Below, in pieces: positions 1 to 11,938 of a stretch of DNA of 64,000 bases; positions within the stretch are counted from its first letter, which is position 1, and each line of letters opens with the position of its first letter. The stretch covers positions 1 through 64,000 of the forward strand of contig JAMAHW010000029.1 in NCBI GenBank assembly GCA_023627715.1, read 5' to 3'. The position numbers were made by a program, and so were the translations under genes. This DNA comes from Periconia sp. R9002. Taxonomy: Eukaryota > Ascomycota > Dothideomycetes > Pleosporales > Periconiaceae. The notes below the pieces were generated by a model. It saw nothing but the letters and a program-made list of their open reading frames with translations. It was not told the origin of the DNA and searched no databases.

Positions 1-3000
1 TATTAAAAAAGTTAACATTCTATAAATTAGGACTAATATATATTTTATCCTCTTTATAATATACTTAGTATCTACCTTTAGGGCTAGAGATATATTTAAT
101 ACCGTATAAGTAGTATATATAACATAGATTTTCCTTATTAGGTTATTACTATAAGAGAGTCCACCGCTAATAGCCCAAATTATATATCTAGACTACTAGT
201 CTAATAAGAAGGATACCCTCTTCTTTAGCTATCTAAAATCGTTTAGTAATAGTAGTAGCGTCTATAGGAATACTTTAAAAGTATTATTTAATATTATACT
301 TAGTTACTTTAGTAGTATTTTATTATTTATAAGTACTAAAGACTAAATTAGTATCTTTATTATTTACGTCCTATAGTTAAAGAATACTATAGCTTATAGT
401 AGAAGGCTTCTTATCTAACTTCTTACGTACTATAAAAGCGTACTCTTTATCTAAGTAATTACTAATAGGCGTAAGTACTTACTCTAGTATAGAAAGATTA
501 GTAAGTAGATAATATATATTACTATAAGGTATAGAGTTATTAAATTTTTATATATTATCTATACGTACTAATATAATATAAGTAGCGCACTACTTATCTA
601 GATTCTAAATCTATATAATAGACTTACTCTTTAAGTATAAAAAGTAACCTAAGGTAGCGTAAAAAGTATAAAGCTTTAACTTTTAGATCTTAAGTAAAAT
701 AGTAGTATAAACTTAAGCGCTATACGCTATATTTTTAGAGTAGTTAAGTATAATATAATTAATTATTTTATAGAGTATTTTTTTTAATTTACGAAGTGCT
801 TTATATAGCGTACACTCTTTTAGCTAAGATACTTATTATATAGTAAAAAGCTATAGTTCTTAAAAAAGTAATAAGTTCTAAATTACCTCTTTTATATAAT
901 TAATAAAGTAGTAAACCTAAGGCTAAAGTAAAGTATTATCCTAAATTATAGTAGTAGTACGTTTACGTAGAGTACAATTAGCTTACTTAACCTAACTATT
1001 TTACTAATAAGTATAAGGTGTAGATAGCTCTAGTGTCTTACTATTTTTAGCCTCTTATTTTTTTATTTTTACTATATAATAGGCATTATTATATTATAAA
1101 ACGTAGACTTTAACTATATTATATACTTTAAACTAAGTTACTATTTTAATAATAATACTATTACTGCTTTTTTTAGTCTTAAAAAAACGTACGTTACTAC
1201 TATAAAACGTAGAGTTAAAGCGTACTATAGTGTATTACTTACCTTATATACCTTTAATAAGGTTAGAACTCTATAAATTAAATACTATAAGTACGCTAAA
1301 GTCTATAAATAGTTAGCTAAATAAGTTATAAAGTATATAGCGTAGGGCGTGCGTAGTGTTATATATTAGATAAAGTTACTATAGGTAGGTAATAATCTAT
1401 TTATTAGTAAGTAAGATGCCTTTACCTTATTTTAGTACTAGACGTATATTATTAAGGCCTATATATCTAAGGCGATAATACTATTACTATATAAAGTTAG
1501 AAAAGTTAGCTATAATAATAGTAGAGACGCTATTACTATTATTAGAGTAGTTAGAGTTATTAAAAATAGCGTTACTTATAGTAGCTAGAGTAGCGCTAGT
1601 AGATAGGTCGTAAAAAATAGTAAAGTAATATAAATAATCTTTTTACTAAGTAAAAGTAACTTTTATACTATTTTAGTATACGTATATACCTTTAGTATTA
1701 CTAGTAAATATAGTTCTATTAGTATTTATTAACTATCTAGGTAAAATAAAATAGTATTATACGCTGCTTATAAAAAGTATATTATAAAGTATTAGTAGTA
1801 TATATTTACTTTTAAATATACGGACTATAGCTTAAATATTGCTACGTCCTTCTAAGAGTAGTTAACTATTACTAGCTAAGTTAATTATTATAGTTTAATT
1901 AGTATATAAGGAAAACTAAGTTCTATTATTAATAATATAATAACTAACTCTAGAATTTATTATCTAGATATTAATATTACTACTATTACTACCTACCTCT
2001 ATTTTACTACCTAAGTTTTTTATACTATCTATTATAATATCTTTTACTATTATATAAAGCTTAAGCTATACTATATTAGCTATAAATAGAGAAGTAGATA
2101 TAGATAAAGACTTATAGTTAATATTTATACCTTAGAAAGTAGTAACTATAGAAATAAAATTATTATTATTATTACTATTATTAGCGTTATTAAAAGAAGT
2201 ATAAGTATAGTAAGTAGAAGTAGAAAAAACCTTATTTTTATTCTTATAAGGTTTTTTACCTTTAGGCTAGACGTACTTATTATAATAGATACTATTAGCC
2301 TAATTATTTTTAAGCTTATAATACTTAGCCTTAGTATATCTAGAGTAATTATAGTAATTATATTTAGTCTAGGTAGAGGCTAAAATACCTTAAGAAGTAG
2401 GCGTTAAGGTAGATAGGTAGTTACAAAATATATAGCCTTATCTACTATAAGTAAAGTATATTAGTTCTACTAATTTTTAAGTTTAAATAAAACTACAACC
2501 TTATCTATAATATAAGCTAGAGCCTTATCTATAAAATCTACTATTATTATTTCTATAAAACTAACTATAGAATAAGCTATAACTACTACTATAACTACGT
2601 TTTTATTTTTATCCTTATTCTTAATTTTACTAGTTTTACTTATAGTAGTAGTTACGCTTATACTTAATAATATCTTTATATATTATAGTATAATTATCCT
2701 TACTATAGTTACTAGCTTTATTAACATTATATTTATCTAGAATACTAGTATATTACTAGTCTAAACTATTAAAAGTTTTAGTAAAAAGTAATTTATAGCT
2801 TATCTATCTAACTTTTTTATAGTTAAGCTATACCTTTTATATAGTAACTAAGTATTCCTCTATAAAATTAAATTTCTTACTACTAGTTATAGCTAAGATT
2901 TAATTAGACTTAGCTATAACCTTAGCGTTAGTAGGCTTAGTAAGTTTTATAAGCTTATCTTAAGCTTTCTTAAAACTCTTTATTATTTTAGCTATAGTAG

Positions 3001-3720
3001 TAATATTATACTAAAAGCTAGGAGATATAATCTTACTAAAAACTTAAATAGCTTTATAATAAACCTTCTAGTAGCGTTCTTATTATTAGTAATCCTCTAT
3101 AAATAACTACTTAGCTACCTTTATATAGATCTTAAAAAGTTAACTAACAACGTTACTACCTACTACTTAGGTAAAAAAGTCTATTACTTTAGGGCGTAGT
3201 ATACTTACTTATTTAGGAAAAAAGAGTAAAGTATCTTACTTCTAATCCTAGAACGCTATTTTAGTATAGGAGCTAATCTTAGGTTTTATAAGCTAGTAGG
3301 GATAATTACTAGTCTAAGATTTAAGGATATTATAGCTTATACTAAGTAGTAGAGCTATCTTATAATACTACTTAGTATAGTTATTTTTACCTTTTAGGAT
3401 AACTTAAAAAGTAGACTTCTACTTTATAGTCTTACTATCTATTATAGTAATAGTAATATATAATATAAGGTATAAGTATAATATAAGGCACTAGTATTAA
3501 TAGAACACTCTTTCTTCTAATATACGTAGAGCACGTTAATAGTATATAGAATATATTAAAGTAGCGCTTAAAGGCGTAGACAATAGACTATAAAAGCCTA
3601 TATTAGACTATAATTAAAATTAGAGTTACTAGACTAAAGCGCATAATAGTTACATAAAAAGCTCTATAACCTATAAGTACTAAAAAATAGAGAGTATATT
3701 AACTAATCTAGTAGCTATAT
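1..3720. repeat. RIP-mutated AT-rich transposon relic
   Basis: About 3.7 kb of extremely AT-rich sequence with no open reading frame of useful length on either strand. CpA and TpG are almost absent while TpA is everywhere; CpG (acgt, gcgt, tacg) is kept. That is the signature of repeat-induced point mutation acting on CpA, not of CpG deamination. RIP acts on duplicated DNA, so this is most likely a dead copy of a multi-copy mobile element. A minus-strand zinc-knuckle fossil at 2321-2362 suggests a retroelement read right to left. I could not recognise reverse transcriptase or integrase motifs. The left end lies outside the window. Confidence 0.85.
2321..2362 (-). other. Fossil CCHC zinc knuckle (retroelement Gag-like)
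   Basis: Read on the minus strand, one frame shows tyrosine codons (all TAT) at exactly the spacing Y-x2-Y-x4-Y-x4-Y. RIP turns TGY (Cys) and CAY (His) into TAY (Tyr), so this is what a C-x2-C-x4-H-x4-C zinc knuckle would look like after mutation. Such knuckles sit at the end of Gag in LTR retrotransposons and also occur in LINE ORF1. If the reading is right, Gag lies to the right and Pol to the left. The pattern is short, so chance is possible; the RIP context makes it credible. Confidence 0.55.
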
Positions 3721-3729
3721 ACAGGGGCA

Positions 3730-3779
3730 GTAGGTATATATACCTACTAGCCTACTACCTAGGCAGCAGCCTAGGCAGC
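3730..3779. repeat. Palindrome and direct repeats at relic/catalase boundary
   Basis: At the edge of the AT-rich block lies a perfect 18-bp palindrome (3730-3747, GTAGGTATATATACCTAC). It is followed by a 10-bp direct repeat CCTAGGCAGC at 3758-3767 and 3770-3779. Composition changes sharply to normal here. This is probably the terminus of the element, about 70 bp upstream of the first surviving catalase exon. Confidence 0.5.
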
Positions 3780-3847
3780 GGAACAAACGCTCTATGAATG
3801 GACATAATCACGTGACAGGGCTATAACCAACAGATTATCCTGTCTAG

Positions 3848-4703
3848 ACCATGAATTTACAGATCATGGACCCCAAAGACGCTGAGAACTACCGATGGAA
3901 CATTTTTGACATTACGAAGATTTGGCCGCAGAAAGATTATCCTCTGATCCCCGTGGGAAAACTCACCCTCAACAAGAATCCCGAGAACTTCTTCCAAGAT
4001 ATCGAACAGGCAGCGTTTTCTCCATCGGCACTTATTCCCGGTATTGGACCTACCGCAGATAGTATGTTGCAAGCGCGCATGTTCTCCTACCCCGATGCAG
4101 CGAGATATCGAGTTGGCCCCAATTACCAACAGCTTCCCTGCAATCGTCCCAAGTATGTGTACTCACCGTACAACCGAGATGGACCAATGCGATTCGATGG
4201 GAACTACGGCTCCGATCCTGACTATGGTAAGGATTCAGCTTGAACCAACATCTACCTTTTGTTTAAAGTATTTACTCACGCGCATGTAGTCCGCTCTTCC
4301 TTCAAGACATTGACACTGGGACCTGGCGACGTAGCCCACGACGAATGGGTTGGCAAGGTCGGTGCATTCACATCTGAAGTCAACGACGACGACTGGATCC
4401 AAGCGCGCGACTTCTGGCATATTCTCAAGGATAGGGGCGACGATGAGCTATTCATTGGAAATTTGACGAGTCATGTGAGCAAAGCTCTCCCGCAGGTGCA
4501 GAAGGAAACCATCAGTAAGTTTCAAAAATTCGCACCACAAATAGAGTTTGTGACCCAGGCTGACAATGGCGTTAGAAATGTTTACGAAGGTGTATGAGGA
4601 GATTGGCGAACGGATGCAGAAGGCTCTTGATGAGTTGAATAATGCTCCAGATCATAGTAAGGCACCGTACGGAGTACAGGAGGCTCTGGGCGGAGGCTAT
4701 TAG
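3848..4703 (+). pseudogene. Catalase, 5'-truncated
   Basis: Haem catalase, C-terminal half only. Deduced exons 3848-4226, 4290-4514 and 4576-4703 join in frame to 243 residues plus stop, against about 500 for a small-subunit catalase. The protein opens with [19 protein letters not shown], normally mid-protein, and keeps the proximal haem-tyrosine region ([14 protein letters not shown]) and the C-terminal DVAHDEWVGKV block. The catalytic His and Asn belong to the missing N-terminal half. The first exon is preceded by an intron acceptor (tctag at 3843-3847), and 70 bp further upstream the RIP-mutated element begins. So the upstream exon was displaced or deleted by the insertion. An initiation at 3851 is possible but could not give an active enzyme. 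The surviving coding part shows no RIP damage and the frame is intact, so the loss may be recent, or the 5' half may lie left of the window. Confidence 0.8.
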
Positions 4704-7704: not shown

Positions 7705-9416
7705 ATGACAGGAGTAATCAAATCGTCCCGATGCGGCACTTGTCGAAGAAGAAAAGTTAAAGTTGGTGATACACCTAGCCTAATTTCTTACCCTGTCTAA
7801 CCACAAAACGTCAGTGCGATGAAGTGAAGCCGGTTTGTGGGCCTTGCCAGAAAAAGAACCGCATCTGTGAGGAACCAGTGTCAAAATACAAGTTCACCGG
7901 GGAGATTTCACTGCTTCCTGCATCTGCACGGTTACCTACCAAAGAGTCAGCGCCGTCTCTCAAACTTCAAAACATTACTGTTATCCGTTCGATTCCTACC
8001 AGTGATGGCGTTGGCTCATTCCAAACGATGCGGCTCATTGACCGGCAGCGTCGTCGACGTGGTAAACAGATCAACGAGGAGAAAACCATTATTTCGAAAA
8101 GCCCACCAATGTCTGCAACTGAATCTCTTCAACAGATCCTTTGTTATTCCTTCCAGGCGCACGTGGAAGGTTGGAGTATCAAAGCTCTTGCTACCTTTGT
8201 GACTGAGATACCTGCCCGAATCGGTCATTCAGAAGCCTTGGATAGTGCAGTGGCTTGCCTTGTCCACTGCCACTCTTCTTTGTGTTCCAAGAAGCTTCCA
8301 CATGAAGATCCGATACAAGCAAAGCTGTACACAAAGTGTCTTGTTTCATTACAAAAAGCCTTGAAGGATCCCGTTGAAGGTTACACAGACGAAACTCTGG
8401 CAGCTGTCAGCATAATTGGGCAAATTGAGATGTTTGGAGGTGGATCCCAAGGGACGGCAAAGTGGATATCGCACGCTGGCGGTGCTGCGAGACTGCTTCA
8501 AGTGCGCGGTCCAGGATATTGTCAATCGAGGTTCTCCAAGATACTTTTGTCTCTTACACGACAGCACTGCGTAGGTTCTCCCCTACTCTCCATACTAATG
8601 TTTGCAGTCGATTCTTCGAACATTCCAGCACTTAGGTTATCGCGGGAGCTAACATTTTACTACCAGATAATGGTGTCTGTTAGCCGCAACGAAGACTGCT
8701 TTCTGGCAGAGAGCCCATGGCAACAGATTTCCTTCGAAGAGATGTACACGGAGGAATTGCATCCTTTCGTAATCAACTTCACCTCATCTCTTTTAGTCCT
8801 TCCATCCATCATCAAGCAAGTAAGACTGTTTCATTACAGGCCAGATATGGTTGACCCAATCTCCATATACCACCAAATCTCCAGATTGCGCCATTCTTTC
8901 GCAGAGGTTTCCGACTATATCAATACCAAATTAAATGACGGTACGACTATCACTGAAGTTCCGACACAAACCGACGATTCCCTCACTCCATTTGTGTATA
9001 ACTTCACTTCGAATCCACTCGCTAGTCTCTGCGCGGCGTACTGGTGTTTCCAAATCATAGTAGACACGTTGATGGCGAGATTTCTCCCATTTCGGCCACT
9101 TCCAACAGATATTGGCTGTGAGACCGCTTCATCCATGGTGTCTTTCGAAGAACTTTGCGATAGCTGTATCCAAGCACGGGAACACATTATCAAGTCCTAC
9201 GAATTTTCAGAACAGAGACAACCCTTCGATGTAGTGTACATGGCTGCTCCAATGATCTTTGCATATCACGGTGCGACAGATATTGAGCGGGAGTGGATTA
9301 TAGAAAGACTATGGAGGGTTGGAGAGCTGGTTCCAAATTCCAGGAAGATCTGGGGTAAGCAAGGGTTGGATTTCATCTACAAATGTTTTCTCGGTGAGCC
9401 AATGGAGACGATCTAA
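7705..9416 (+). CDS. Zn2Cys6 fungal transcription factor
   Basis: Nuclear DNA-binding regulator of 552 residues. Exon 1 is 7705-7761 and exon 2 is 7815-9416, split by a 53-bp intron inside the zinc cluster. After splicing the cluster is perfect: C10-x2-C13-x6-C20-x6-C27-x2-C30-x6-C37, with the basic RRRKVK between. The intron donor is GTTGGT (not the strongest consensus) and the acceptor gtcag. The C-terminal part (from roughly residue 130) resembles the Fungal_trans_2 regulatory domain, for example ISHAGGAARLLQVRGP and CFLAESPW. A 37-nt GTAGGT...TTTGCAG stretch at 8571-8607 looks like a minimal intron but removing it breaks the frame, so I keep it as coding. Target genes are unknown; it converges on the RelA/SpoT homologue downstream. 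Confidence 0.88.
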
Positions 9417-9589: not shown

Positions 9590-11938
9590 TTACTTCCCGA
9601 TTTTATCGCTCAGAGATTGTTTTCTCTCCCGTCGATCGTTCTTGTATATGATCAATTCCAAGGCGGTGGATTCTAGAACAAACTCCCCTTGTTCCATAGT
9701 AATCAAATACGATACAAAATTGTTTTCTTTTCCTACCCGCTCAATGGAAGCGCGATTCGGAATCAAAGATTTTGTGAGGTCTTCGAACGGATGTTCGCGT
9801 TGAATAACGAGGATACGTCTGTTTTTGCCCGGGTCTGAAATGGTTCTTTTCCTCAGCTCCCATTTTTCGGGCAAATCGGGGATGTAATTCCATTTCGGCC
9901 CTTCTGTATCATTGCTTCGTAATGGCCTGAAGTATCCAGGATGCTTGCGGGGCCGAGAGGCATTTTTGTTCGCTCGAAACTCGATACTGAAGTCGGATTC
10001 CCCCAGTCCGCGCTTGAAGTTCCATCTCGTATCACGTTTATCCGGGTACGGAAAGAGAGAAAATACTCTGTCTGTCTTTTCTCCCTCATCAGTTTCCTCG
10101 ATGATATCAATGCCTTCCTCAAGTCGGAGGTGAAGTTGAGCTCCGCGATTCGTACCAGGTGCTTGCTCTGCGCGAAGCGTCTCCAATCCCGATTTTGGAT
10201 CCTGGACGACAATGTCCCTCCAATTCTTGGCAACGTTTGAGATATCTGGCACCCAATGTGAATTGTTGTGATCTTTCAATAAAGCGCACAGAGTCCGAGG
10301 AATGATTACACCTTCGTCAGCGGTATGGCCATTCCCCACGGTCGAGTCTTCGTTTGTACCGAAAATGGGGTAGGCAACGCGCTCCGTCTCGACAATCAAT
10401 CTTGGCAGTTCGGTCAGAACCGGGGTGATATCTACATCTGGCTCGGTTCTCACGCGCTCTATTGCACTGCGAAATTTCTCCATATCCAGAAAAGCGGTAC
10501 TAAAATCACATAATGGATCCAGGGAACTCCAATTCACGCGGCTCTGATCTGGATGCAGAATATCCAAAAAGTCGAGTAGTGTTGGCCGCTGGTCCTCGTC
10601 TGGAAGAACATGTTCGTCCATGATCTGGATGAAAAGATCGTGAATGCCAAGCGATGCAGCCACGTTGAGACAGTGAACAACGCGCAAAGCCAGAGCCCGG
10701 CATTCATGTCGTGTTTTGTCCTTAACAGGTAGATTGGTCACTTGTCGAGCGGTCACAGTCTCCGCATTGCTCTTGCACTTGGCTCTCAGCATAAATAACG
10801 GCAGATTGAAGCCCAGATCTTGTTGTGTGCGGTTTCCTTCCAAAACTTCTGTCACCAGGCCCTTGATGATACCCCGCGTATGCTGTTTCCCGGCTTGCAA
10901 ATATTCGTAGAGCTTCTTCAGATAGTTCCAGTATGTAATACTATCGTGAAGCGAGTTTCTTTTCGTCGGAGGTACGTGATCCGCAATCCATTTTCCGACA
11001 TCATAAATATGCTTAGCTTCTTGCATCTCTTCTTGTACCAGTACCTTGCCCAGCTGACTCAGCGCATTTTCTCCCACTGTAACGATACCATTAATAGTAT
11101 CGAGAATGCTTTTTTTCTCATCACTTGTAGCAATTTGAGGCTTGTATCCAATGTCATGTTCTACTTGTGACCAGGCATTCATGACCATCGTTTGTATTTG
11201 AACCTCGACCACATATCTCGACTCATCAGCAGGCTGAAGGTGTACGTGCGTCGCCCTATATCCCGGGAAAGTTTTTGCAGCCCGACCATGCTGAGGTGCC
11301 TTGCCATGCCTCAAGAATTTAATGTATTGCTCTAACCAGAACATGTCTGGTGCTATATCTCTTCCTCGGTGTAGCTCACGGAGAAACACGACGCCCTTAA
11401 GACATTTCAAGTCTTGTACAACCTTTTCGATGTCGTCGGGGAAATATACCATCACTCTTATACCACCAATGTCATGCAGGCCTTCGAACATTGCGTCTGA
11501 ACTTTGAAAAGGACCATAGTCGTTGATCCTCTCCGGTCGCTGGTTATCTCTCCAGTAGTTTTCCCAGCTTTTCCCCAGCTTTTCCAACTCCAGCTTGAAC
11601 GAAGCGCGCCTGTTTCTCTCGATCTGACGTCTTTTAAGCGCAAGAATAGCTGATTTCTCGGTTTTGATTCTGTATGTGATCTGGAACATCACCCCATTCT
11701 CGCGTAACTGTGTTTCTATGTCTTTGTAGATTTCTTCCAACCCACTTTTGATCAGGGCACTCCTTTCACTATAGCGTCGTGTGAATTCGGCTAAATGCTG
11801 TTCAAAAAGTTGCTCGTTCGTCAAACCGATATGTGAACCATCGTCAGGCTGGCTTTCATCTCTTTCAGTGGATGGCGTAGATCCTGGTTGTTTGGACCCA
11901 TCGACAGGTGTTGAATTCGAAGATCGGAGCAAATCCAT
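9590..11938 (-). CDS. RelA/SpoT-domain protein (alarmone synthetase-like)
   Basis: Intronless gene for 782 residues with a RelA/SpoT nucleotidyltransferase domain at about 75-300. The synthetase signatures are intact: YRIKTEKSAILALKR (ATP-binding R-x-K...S, 90-103), D156-x2-G-x-R161, the GYRATH loop (226-231, Y-R-x2-H), and E245-VQIQT followed by W256 and H261. In bacteria this fold makes (p)ppGpp from ATP and GTP/GDP; the pattern here is closest to small single-domain synthetases (RelP/RelQ type). Only about 75 residues precede it, so there is no room for an N-terminal HD hydrolase. The C-terminal 450 residues match nothing I recognise and show no TGS or ACT domain. No signal or membrane segment is evident. 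RelA/SpoT domains are known in some fungi, but what the enzyme makes there is not established to my knowledge. The gene converges on a Zn2Cys6 regulator; there is no evidence of recent bacterial transfer beyond lack of introns. Confidence 0.85.
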   Translation of the reverse strand: MDLLRSSNSTPVDGSKQPGSTPSTERDESQPDDGSHIGLTNEQLFEQHLAEFTRRYSERSALIKSGLEEIYKDIETQLRENGVMFQITYRIKTEKSAILALKRRQIERNRRASFKLELEKLGKSWENYWRDNQRPERINDYGPFQSSDAMFEGLHDIGGIRVMVYFPDDIEKVVQDLKCLKGVVFLRELHRGRDIAPDMFWLEQYIKFLRHGKAPQHGRAAKTFPGYRATHVHLQPADESRYVVEVQIQTMVMNAWSQVEHDIGYKPQIATSDEKKSILDTINGIVTVGENALSQLGKVLVQEEMQEAKHIYDVGKWIADHVPPTKRNSLHDSITYWNYLKKLYEYLQAGKQHTRGIIKGLVTEVLEGNRTQQDLGFNLPLFMLRAKCKSNAETVTARQVTNLPVKDKTRHECRALALRVVHCLNVAASLGIHDLFIQIMDEHVLPDEDQRPTLLDFLDILHPDQSRVNWSSLDPLCDFSTAFLDMEKFRSAIERVRTEPDVDITPVLTELPRLIVETERVAYPIFGTNEDSTVGNGHTADEGVIIPRTLCALLKDHNNSHWVPDISNVAKNWRDIVVQDPKSGLETLRAEQAPGTNRGAQLHLRLEEGIDIIEETDEGEKTDRVFSLFPYPDKRDTRWNFKRGLGESDFSIEFRANKNASRPRKHPGYFRPLRSNDTEGPKWNYIPDLPEKWELRKRTISDPGKNRRILVIQREHPFEDLTKSLIPNRASIERVGKENNFVSYLITMEQGEFVLESTALELIIYKNDRRERKQSLSDKIGK

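Follow-up and report, generated by a model that had tools for sequence, protein, structure and literature searches.

What does an alarmone-type synthetase do in a fungus in which no RelA/SpoT homologue (RSH) hydrolase is detected? The question is raised by a gene in the window, the stretch of 64,000 nucleotides from Periconia sp. R9002 analysed here (contig JAMAHW010000029.1, positions 1 to 64,000). The open reading frame (ORF) at 9590..11938 encodes a 782-residue protein, which an original prediction, made from the DNA letters alone, took for an RSH with all the marks of a synthetase of guanosine tetra- and pentaphosphate, (p)ppGpp. We propose, with moderate confidence, that this protein is a two-part pyrophosphotransferase from a fungal small alarmone synthetase (SAS) clade, with an altered acceptor site and gated by its own C-terminal part. 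The family is a good entry point to proteins of this kind, being represented here by a single intact ORF, found in three classes of Pezizomycotina and marked by precise acceptor-site differences. Should the enzyme prove active, it would reveal how a eukaryote copes with it when no RSH hydrolase is detected, and would link the chemistry of bacterial alarmones and toxic SASs (toxSASs) to fungal self-defence or stress arrest.

A synthetase fold with an intact catalytic skeleton

A Pfam scan of the protein identified RelA_SpoT (PF04607, residues 148-268, E 2.4e-12), which scores 47.5 bits against the cut-off of 27 that the profile sets for the SYNTH domain of the RSH superfamily. No other Pfam family was matched at E ≤ 1. 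As had been claimed, there is no match to HD, TGS or ACT, and a long RSH (Rel, RelA, SpoT) was rejected for this reason. RelP, RelQ and Streptococcus pneumoniae SAS chains top both the Foldseek and the VIA-align lists for the predicted structure, and this SAS-type fold, together with the Pfam score, bears out the assignment as a RelA/SpoT homologue. The model does not place Asp156 and Glu245 away from the active site: their strands are modelled with a predicted local distance difference test score (pLDDT) of ~84 and both lie on the RelQ fold, though the G-loop and residues 259-269 fall below 50.

The residues named in the original prediction (R90, K92, S96, D156, R161, Y227, H231, E245, Q247 and H261) lie exactly where it had put them, and all elements of the catalytic skeleton (RxKxxxS, DxxGxR, GY-x3-H and ExQ) are present. 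In an alignment of the window protein with 14 relatives that are 30-93% identical to it (15 rows, P0015 being left out), R90, K92, S96, D156, G159, R161, Y227, H231, E245, E260, H261, Y265 and K266 are identical throughout. Q247 is found in 14 of the 15 rows; the exception, P0010, lacks the stretch around this residue, perhaps through a gene-model error. By position, R90, K92 and S96 correspond to R64, K66 and S70 of FaRel2 (PMC11782079). That the catalytic residues are retained in every row, despite identities down to 30%, fits selection on catalysis. Because the donor, metal, stacking and catalytic residues are so strictly conserved, an active pyrophosphotransferase is the likeliest reading of these motifs. 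In the reaction we envisage, the N-terminal SAS-fold domain (residues 53-303) would bind ATP and Mg2+ through R90, K92, S96, D156 and R161, Y227 would stack against a purine acceptor, and E245 would serve as the catalytic glutamate while the beta-gamma pyrophosphate of ATP is transferred to the acceptor's 3'-OH.

The protein is not alone. A full-length search recovered 14 relatives and a search with residues 70-320 added P0015, giving at least 15 relatives, or 16 rows once the window protein is counted; both searches were word-based, and the count is a lower bound. P0001 (93% identical) is the closest among the listed relatives. A hypothetical protein of Periconia macrospinosa, a dothideomycete of the Pleosporales, is 89% identical over the whole length, and the ORF is therefore not a chance frame. 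The named sources are Periconia, Dothidotthia and Bathelium (Dothideomycetes), Halenospora (Leotiomycetes) and Nemania (Sordariomycetes), with Trypethelium and Hypoxylon in addition. RelA_SpoT was matched by all 15 rows of the alignment at E ≤ 0.1, and no other Pfam family was matched by more than one member.

For comparison, we assembled 13 outside rows, from bacteria or listed as phage, and added the C53 paralog, a divergent second RelA_SpoT gene of the source genome. From their sequence, we take seven of the rows (L009-L012 and L014-L016) to be RelP/RelQ-type, and one of the seven, L014, is annotated as GTP pyrophosphokinase. The six others (L004-L008 and L013) include no proven toxSAS. L009-L012, L015 and L016 are unverified contigs, catalogued as phage, that may derive from a host genome. 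In the resulting tree, the 16 fungal rows, P0015 included, form one clade at 100/99, and the seven RelP/RelQ-type rows form a separate clade at 100/100 to which no fungal row belongs. A branch at 98/93 sets the fungal family, the paralog, L004, L006 and L007 apart from the other ten rows. With five loci taken from a single genome scan and eight from phage records, sampling outside the family is thin, and we therefore name no donor of the fungal family.

The acceptor site and candidate products

Comparison of the acceptor site across the 16 fungal rows, the 13 outside rows and the paralog showed where the claim of a full set of (p)ppGpp synthetase marks breaks down: the catalytic skeleton is intact, but two lysines present in all seven RelP/RelQ-type rows are missing from all 16 fungal rows. 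One is the G-loop lysine (K-x-[S/N]-G-Y, three residues before the G-loop glycine), which in RelSeq grips the acceptor phosphates; it is found in none of the six other rows and is present in the paralog. The second, four residues after the donor-site serine (S+4, the position of residue 100), is shared by the six other rows (6/6) and the paralog, and its counterpart in FaRel2, K74, helps hold the ATP phosphates (PMC11782079). In the fungal rows, 64-72 residues separate DxxGxR from GY (66 in the paralog), whereas RelP/RelQ-type rows have 38 and the others 35-44; the difference reflects a fungal insertion before the G-loop. Between S+1 and S+16, the fungal rows carry 4-8 basic residues; the counts are 2-4 for the RelP/RelQ type, 3-5 for the six remaining outside rows and 4 for the paralog, and these ranges overlap. 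The fungal family therefore differs from RelQ (SAS1, YjbM) and RelP (SAS2, YwaC) in both lysines and in spacing, as well as in its separate clade and its extra C-terminal part of 470 residues.

Given the two missing lysines and the insertion, GDP or GTP as the acceptor, and (p)ppGpp as the product, are not to be assumed. The departures do not single out an acceptor: guanine nucleotides, adenine nucleotides and an RNA end are all candidates. What they predict is that (p)ppGpp is either not the product or not the sole one.

Close to the view of the original prediction is a plain fungal (p)ppGpp synthetase, active under stress, whose product would be cleared by unrelated pyrophosphatases, for example of the Nudix type. 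The fold and catalytic skeleton of RelQ are those expected of such an enzyme, as is the stacking Tyr227 found in 15 of 15 rows, and non-homologous hydrolases have been proposed for fungi of this kind (Atkinson 2011, PMC3153485). We nonetheless consider this explanation unlikely, if a serious contender, since the S+4 lysine, present in every one of the 13 outside rows, occurs in no fungal row, the G-loop lysine divides the fungal from the RelP/RelQ-type rows as completely, and both the insertion and the position of the clade set the family apart.

The absence of the G-loop lysine, shared with L004-L008 and L013, and the arginine-rich helix that follows the donor site would also suit an enzyme that, like some bacterial toxSASs, adds pyrophosphate to the 3' end of an RNA, tRNA for example, and so stops translation. 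This seems to us rather doubtful: the comparison rows contain no proven toxSAS by which to judge it, and the tRNA contacts of FaRel2, K28 and R29 (PMC11782079), lie outside the mapping. Finally, a catalytically dead or residual domain, its SAS fold retained only so that the C-terminal part can sense a nucleotide or RNA, is improbable, for although the S+4 lysine is gone from 16 of 16 fungal rows, a pure binder would need none of the residues R90, K92, S96, D156, R161, Y227, H231 and E245 that are held identical across the alignment.

The C-terminal part and a possible control of the enzyme

In the two-part pyrophosphotransferase that we favour, the C-terminal part of 470 residues is most likely the sensor of a ligand or partner; it would keep the enzyme inactive before a trigger arrives and so stand in for a hydrolase. 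This part is joined to the synthetase in all 14 aligned relatives and is conserved, with invariant residues up to position 556 in the 15-row alignment; four relatives are shorter (P0003, P0011, P0013 and P0014; 677-727 residues), with the C-terminal end truncated or diverged. A search with residues 310-782 alone returned at least five proteins, all of them RelA_SpoT-carrying members of the family, and among these five matches none joins the C-terminal part to another partner. The reach of this search was short: it scored only the 7995 candidates with the most words in common with the query, at least nine members already known went undetected, and a fusion to another partner could escape it. 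The model consists of a helical and a strand-rich part, and the linker between them (residues 577-612) has a pLDDT below 50. In agreement with the earlier description of an unassigned fold, neither the Pfam scan nor structure comparison of the model (pLDDT 67) matched a known family or solved fold. The model thus had no match of note to a CapRel-type pseudo-zinc-finger autoinhibitory domain either, though a missing match excludes nothing.

CapRel is a SAS gated by its own C-terminal part (PMC11782079). Because the large C-terminal part of the window protein is not seen apart from the synthetase, the analogy suggests gating in cis in place of a hydrolase. The window protein differs from CapRel and from other toxSASs (FaRel2, Tas1) in that its C-terminal part is far larger and without a detected structural match, and in that it is fungal.

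An alarmone can be toxic in a eukaryote: growth of Saccharomyces cerevisiae is inhibited when it is made to synthesise ppGpp and is restored by human Mesh1 (PMC5527313). The search for a Mesh1-type hydrolase agrees with the suspicion that the synthetase is unopposed: HD_4 (the Mesh1/SpoT hydrolase family), the only family searched, has no match in the 42.9-Mb source genome (0/1). Among 14 control genomes the same search was positive in ten, all of them non-eukaryotic, and so provides no intron-bearing positive control. Because exons are read one at a time and parts of the genome may be missing from the assembly, the evidence for absence is good but not final. An RSH hydrolase was likewise not found in other fungi with such synthetases (Atkinson 2011, PMC3153485).

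Divergent synthetase-only SASs (divRel) are known from Aspergillus nidulans, A. fumigatus and Gibberella zeae, and what the available text of that study offers on the function of fungal SASs are proposals, with no tested function (Atkinson 2011, PMC3153485). RelA_SpoT was also listed among 12 N-terminal domain classes of fungal nucleotide-binding, NOD-like receptors (NLRs), with manipulation of bacteria as the suggested role (Dyrka 2014, PMC4986451). The novelty implied at the outset is thus reduced, fungal synthetase-only RSHs having been reported since 2011 and RelA_SpoT NLR effectors in 2014. We file the protein as a member of the RSH synthetase superfamily that most resembles the fungal divRel SASs, and not as a RelP/RelQ, a long RSH or an NLR. 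Like divRel, it is a synthetase-only RSH in an ascomycete without an RSH hydrolase match: it has no HD match, its genome has no HD_4 match and it stands outside the RelP/RelQ-type clade. The likeness is by description only, the published divRel sequences and other bacterial subgroups lying outside the comparison. The protein is therefore known in kind, and its architecture and active-site detail are new as far as we have seen.

The NLR literature bears on function as well. RelA_SpoT recurs there as a fungal NLR or immune effector domain (PMC10197012; Wojciechowski 2022, PMC9815663), and a 2025 survey of Sordariales gives 14 NLRs with RelA_SpoT, 82%, of T-NACHT type (PMC12258605). The window family resembles these RelA_SpoT-NACHT proteins of filamentous fungi in having an N-terminal RelA_SpoT domain followed by a long further part (PMC4986451, PMC9815663, PMC12258605). 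It is unlike them in lacking any match to NACHT, NB-ARC or repeats in the 15 rows scanned at E ≤ 0.1, and NLR identity was rejected on this ground. The source genome has at least 43 NACHT matches, a sizeable NLR-type repertoire, with none listed on the contig of the window (C29) or on C53.

For the biological role, the simplest guess is that the enzyme arrests growth during stress or in self-defence, as fungal NLRs carry this domain in the effector position. Once triggered, it could do so by using up ATP and GTP, through a toxic nucleotide product or through the capping of an RNA 3' end. A bolder form of this idea, which we regard as speculative and on balance unlikely, is that the family is a non-NLR, toxSAS-like suicide or immunity enzyme of filamentous ascomycetes, which would use an adenine-nucleotide or RNA 3'-end acceptor in place of GDP or GTP and be held by a C-terminal sensor until released by an invader or by non-self hyphal fusion. 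By the terms tried, RelA_SpoT is not mentioned in the accessible text of a paper on fungal cell death (PMC12881547), and that of a paper on incompatibility genes of Aspergillus fumigatus (PMC11138114) gave no hit for SpoT or ppGpp, offering no support there for a role in allorecognition. No biochemical test of a fungal RelA_SpoT enzyme was recognised by title or abstract among the papers listed, in a literature coverage that leaves out preprints and most subscription papers.

The second RelA_SpoT gene and the genomic setting

Table 1. Positions of the gene, its domains and motifs, and the second RelA_SpoT gene (window coordinates unless a contig is given)
Feature	Residues	Position	Strand	Remark
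Whole single-exon ORF, 782 residues; RelA_SpoT domain and family-specific C-terminal part	1-782	9590..11938	minus	ATG start, stop-free frame
Synthetase (SYNTH/SAS) domain	53-303	11030..11782	minus	
Donor-site motif R90-x-K92-x3-S96	90-96	11651..11671	minus	invariant in 15/15 rows
Basic helix	102-111	11606..11635	minus	arginine-rich, long; without the S+4 lysine
Metal-binding motif D156-x2-G-x-R161 (D156-IGG-I-R161)	156-161	11456..11473	minus	D156, G159 and R161 identical in 15/15 rows
Fungal insertion, ~27 residues, before the G-loop	within 190-223	11270..11371	minus	from spacing comparison
G-loop G226-Y227-x3-H231 (Y227-R-AT-H231)	226-231	11246..11263	minus	stacking tyrosine present, G-loop lysine missing
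Catalytic E245-x-Q247 (E245-V-Q247-I)	245-247	11198..11206	minus	E245 15/15, Q247 14/15 rows
E260-H261 to Y265-K266	260-266	11141..11161	minus	invariant in 15/15 rows
C-terminal helical part	311-590	10169..11008	minus	no known family or fold matched
C-terminal strand-rich part	612-766	9641..10105	minus	no known family or fold matched
Second, divergent RelA_SpoT gene (L002/L003)		contig C53:176949-177425	minus	

The DNA of the 782-residue gene has one match in the source genome (42.9 Mb, 267 contigs), and the C53 paralog is the only distant relative of the protein found there. With an identity of only 25-29% over the synthetase part, a recent duplicate was rejected. By eye, the paralog has a frame of ~390 codons followed by an apparent intron and a second exon of ~145 codons. 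It retains both lysines missing from the window family and has G-H where the family has E-H. Its placement is unsure and its branch long: it joined L004 in the first tree, and in a second tree without L004, P0010 and P0001 (14 fungal rows) it joins the fungal family at 84/75, with the bootstrap not quite settled. The 66-residue spacing points likewise to kinship with the fungal family.

The window starts at base 1 of contig C29, and the open frame surrounding the ORF runs to 807 codons. Bacterial contamination was rejected given the size of the contig (407 kb), the fungal-specific transcription factor domain among the scanned ORFs and the ascomycete sources of the nearest named relatives. The gene is 9.6 kb from the contig end and ~5.6 kb from an AT-rich block (window positions 1-4000), with a G+C content of 23-26% against 43-51% elsewhere; the block could be a mutated repeat or a subtelomeric stretch. 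On the contig-end side, an ORF at 7824-9416 on the plus strand lies tail to tail with the gene; its cysteine-rich start resembles, by eye, half a Zn2Cys6 motif, and it has no Pfam match. Seven of the ten window ORFs scanned encode a sugar transporter, a potassium transporter, an inositol monophosphatase, a fungal transcription factor, a dipeptidyl peptidase, a UPF0261 protein and a berberine-bridge-type oxidase; three match no Pfam family, and none of the ten is an obvious partner gene.

Some of the comparison rows deserve mention in their own right. In two loci of Candidatus Staskawiczbacteria (Paceibacterota), L006 (2797-5808) and L007 (2746-5802), a RelA_SpoT-type domain without the G-loop lysine starts proteins of ~1000 residues, and the remainder of the L006 protein, the one scanned, has no Pfam match. 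A SAS-like protein is also encoded by Vibrio phage 10N.261.45.F7_PE002A (8.1 kb, placed in Tubulavirales; L013, 712-1722), where the gene adjoins one for a putative transcription regulator; this protein is without the G-loop lysine and carries S-H in place of E-H.
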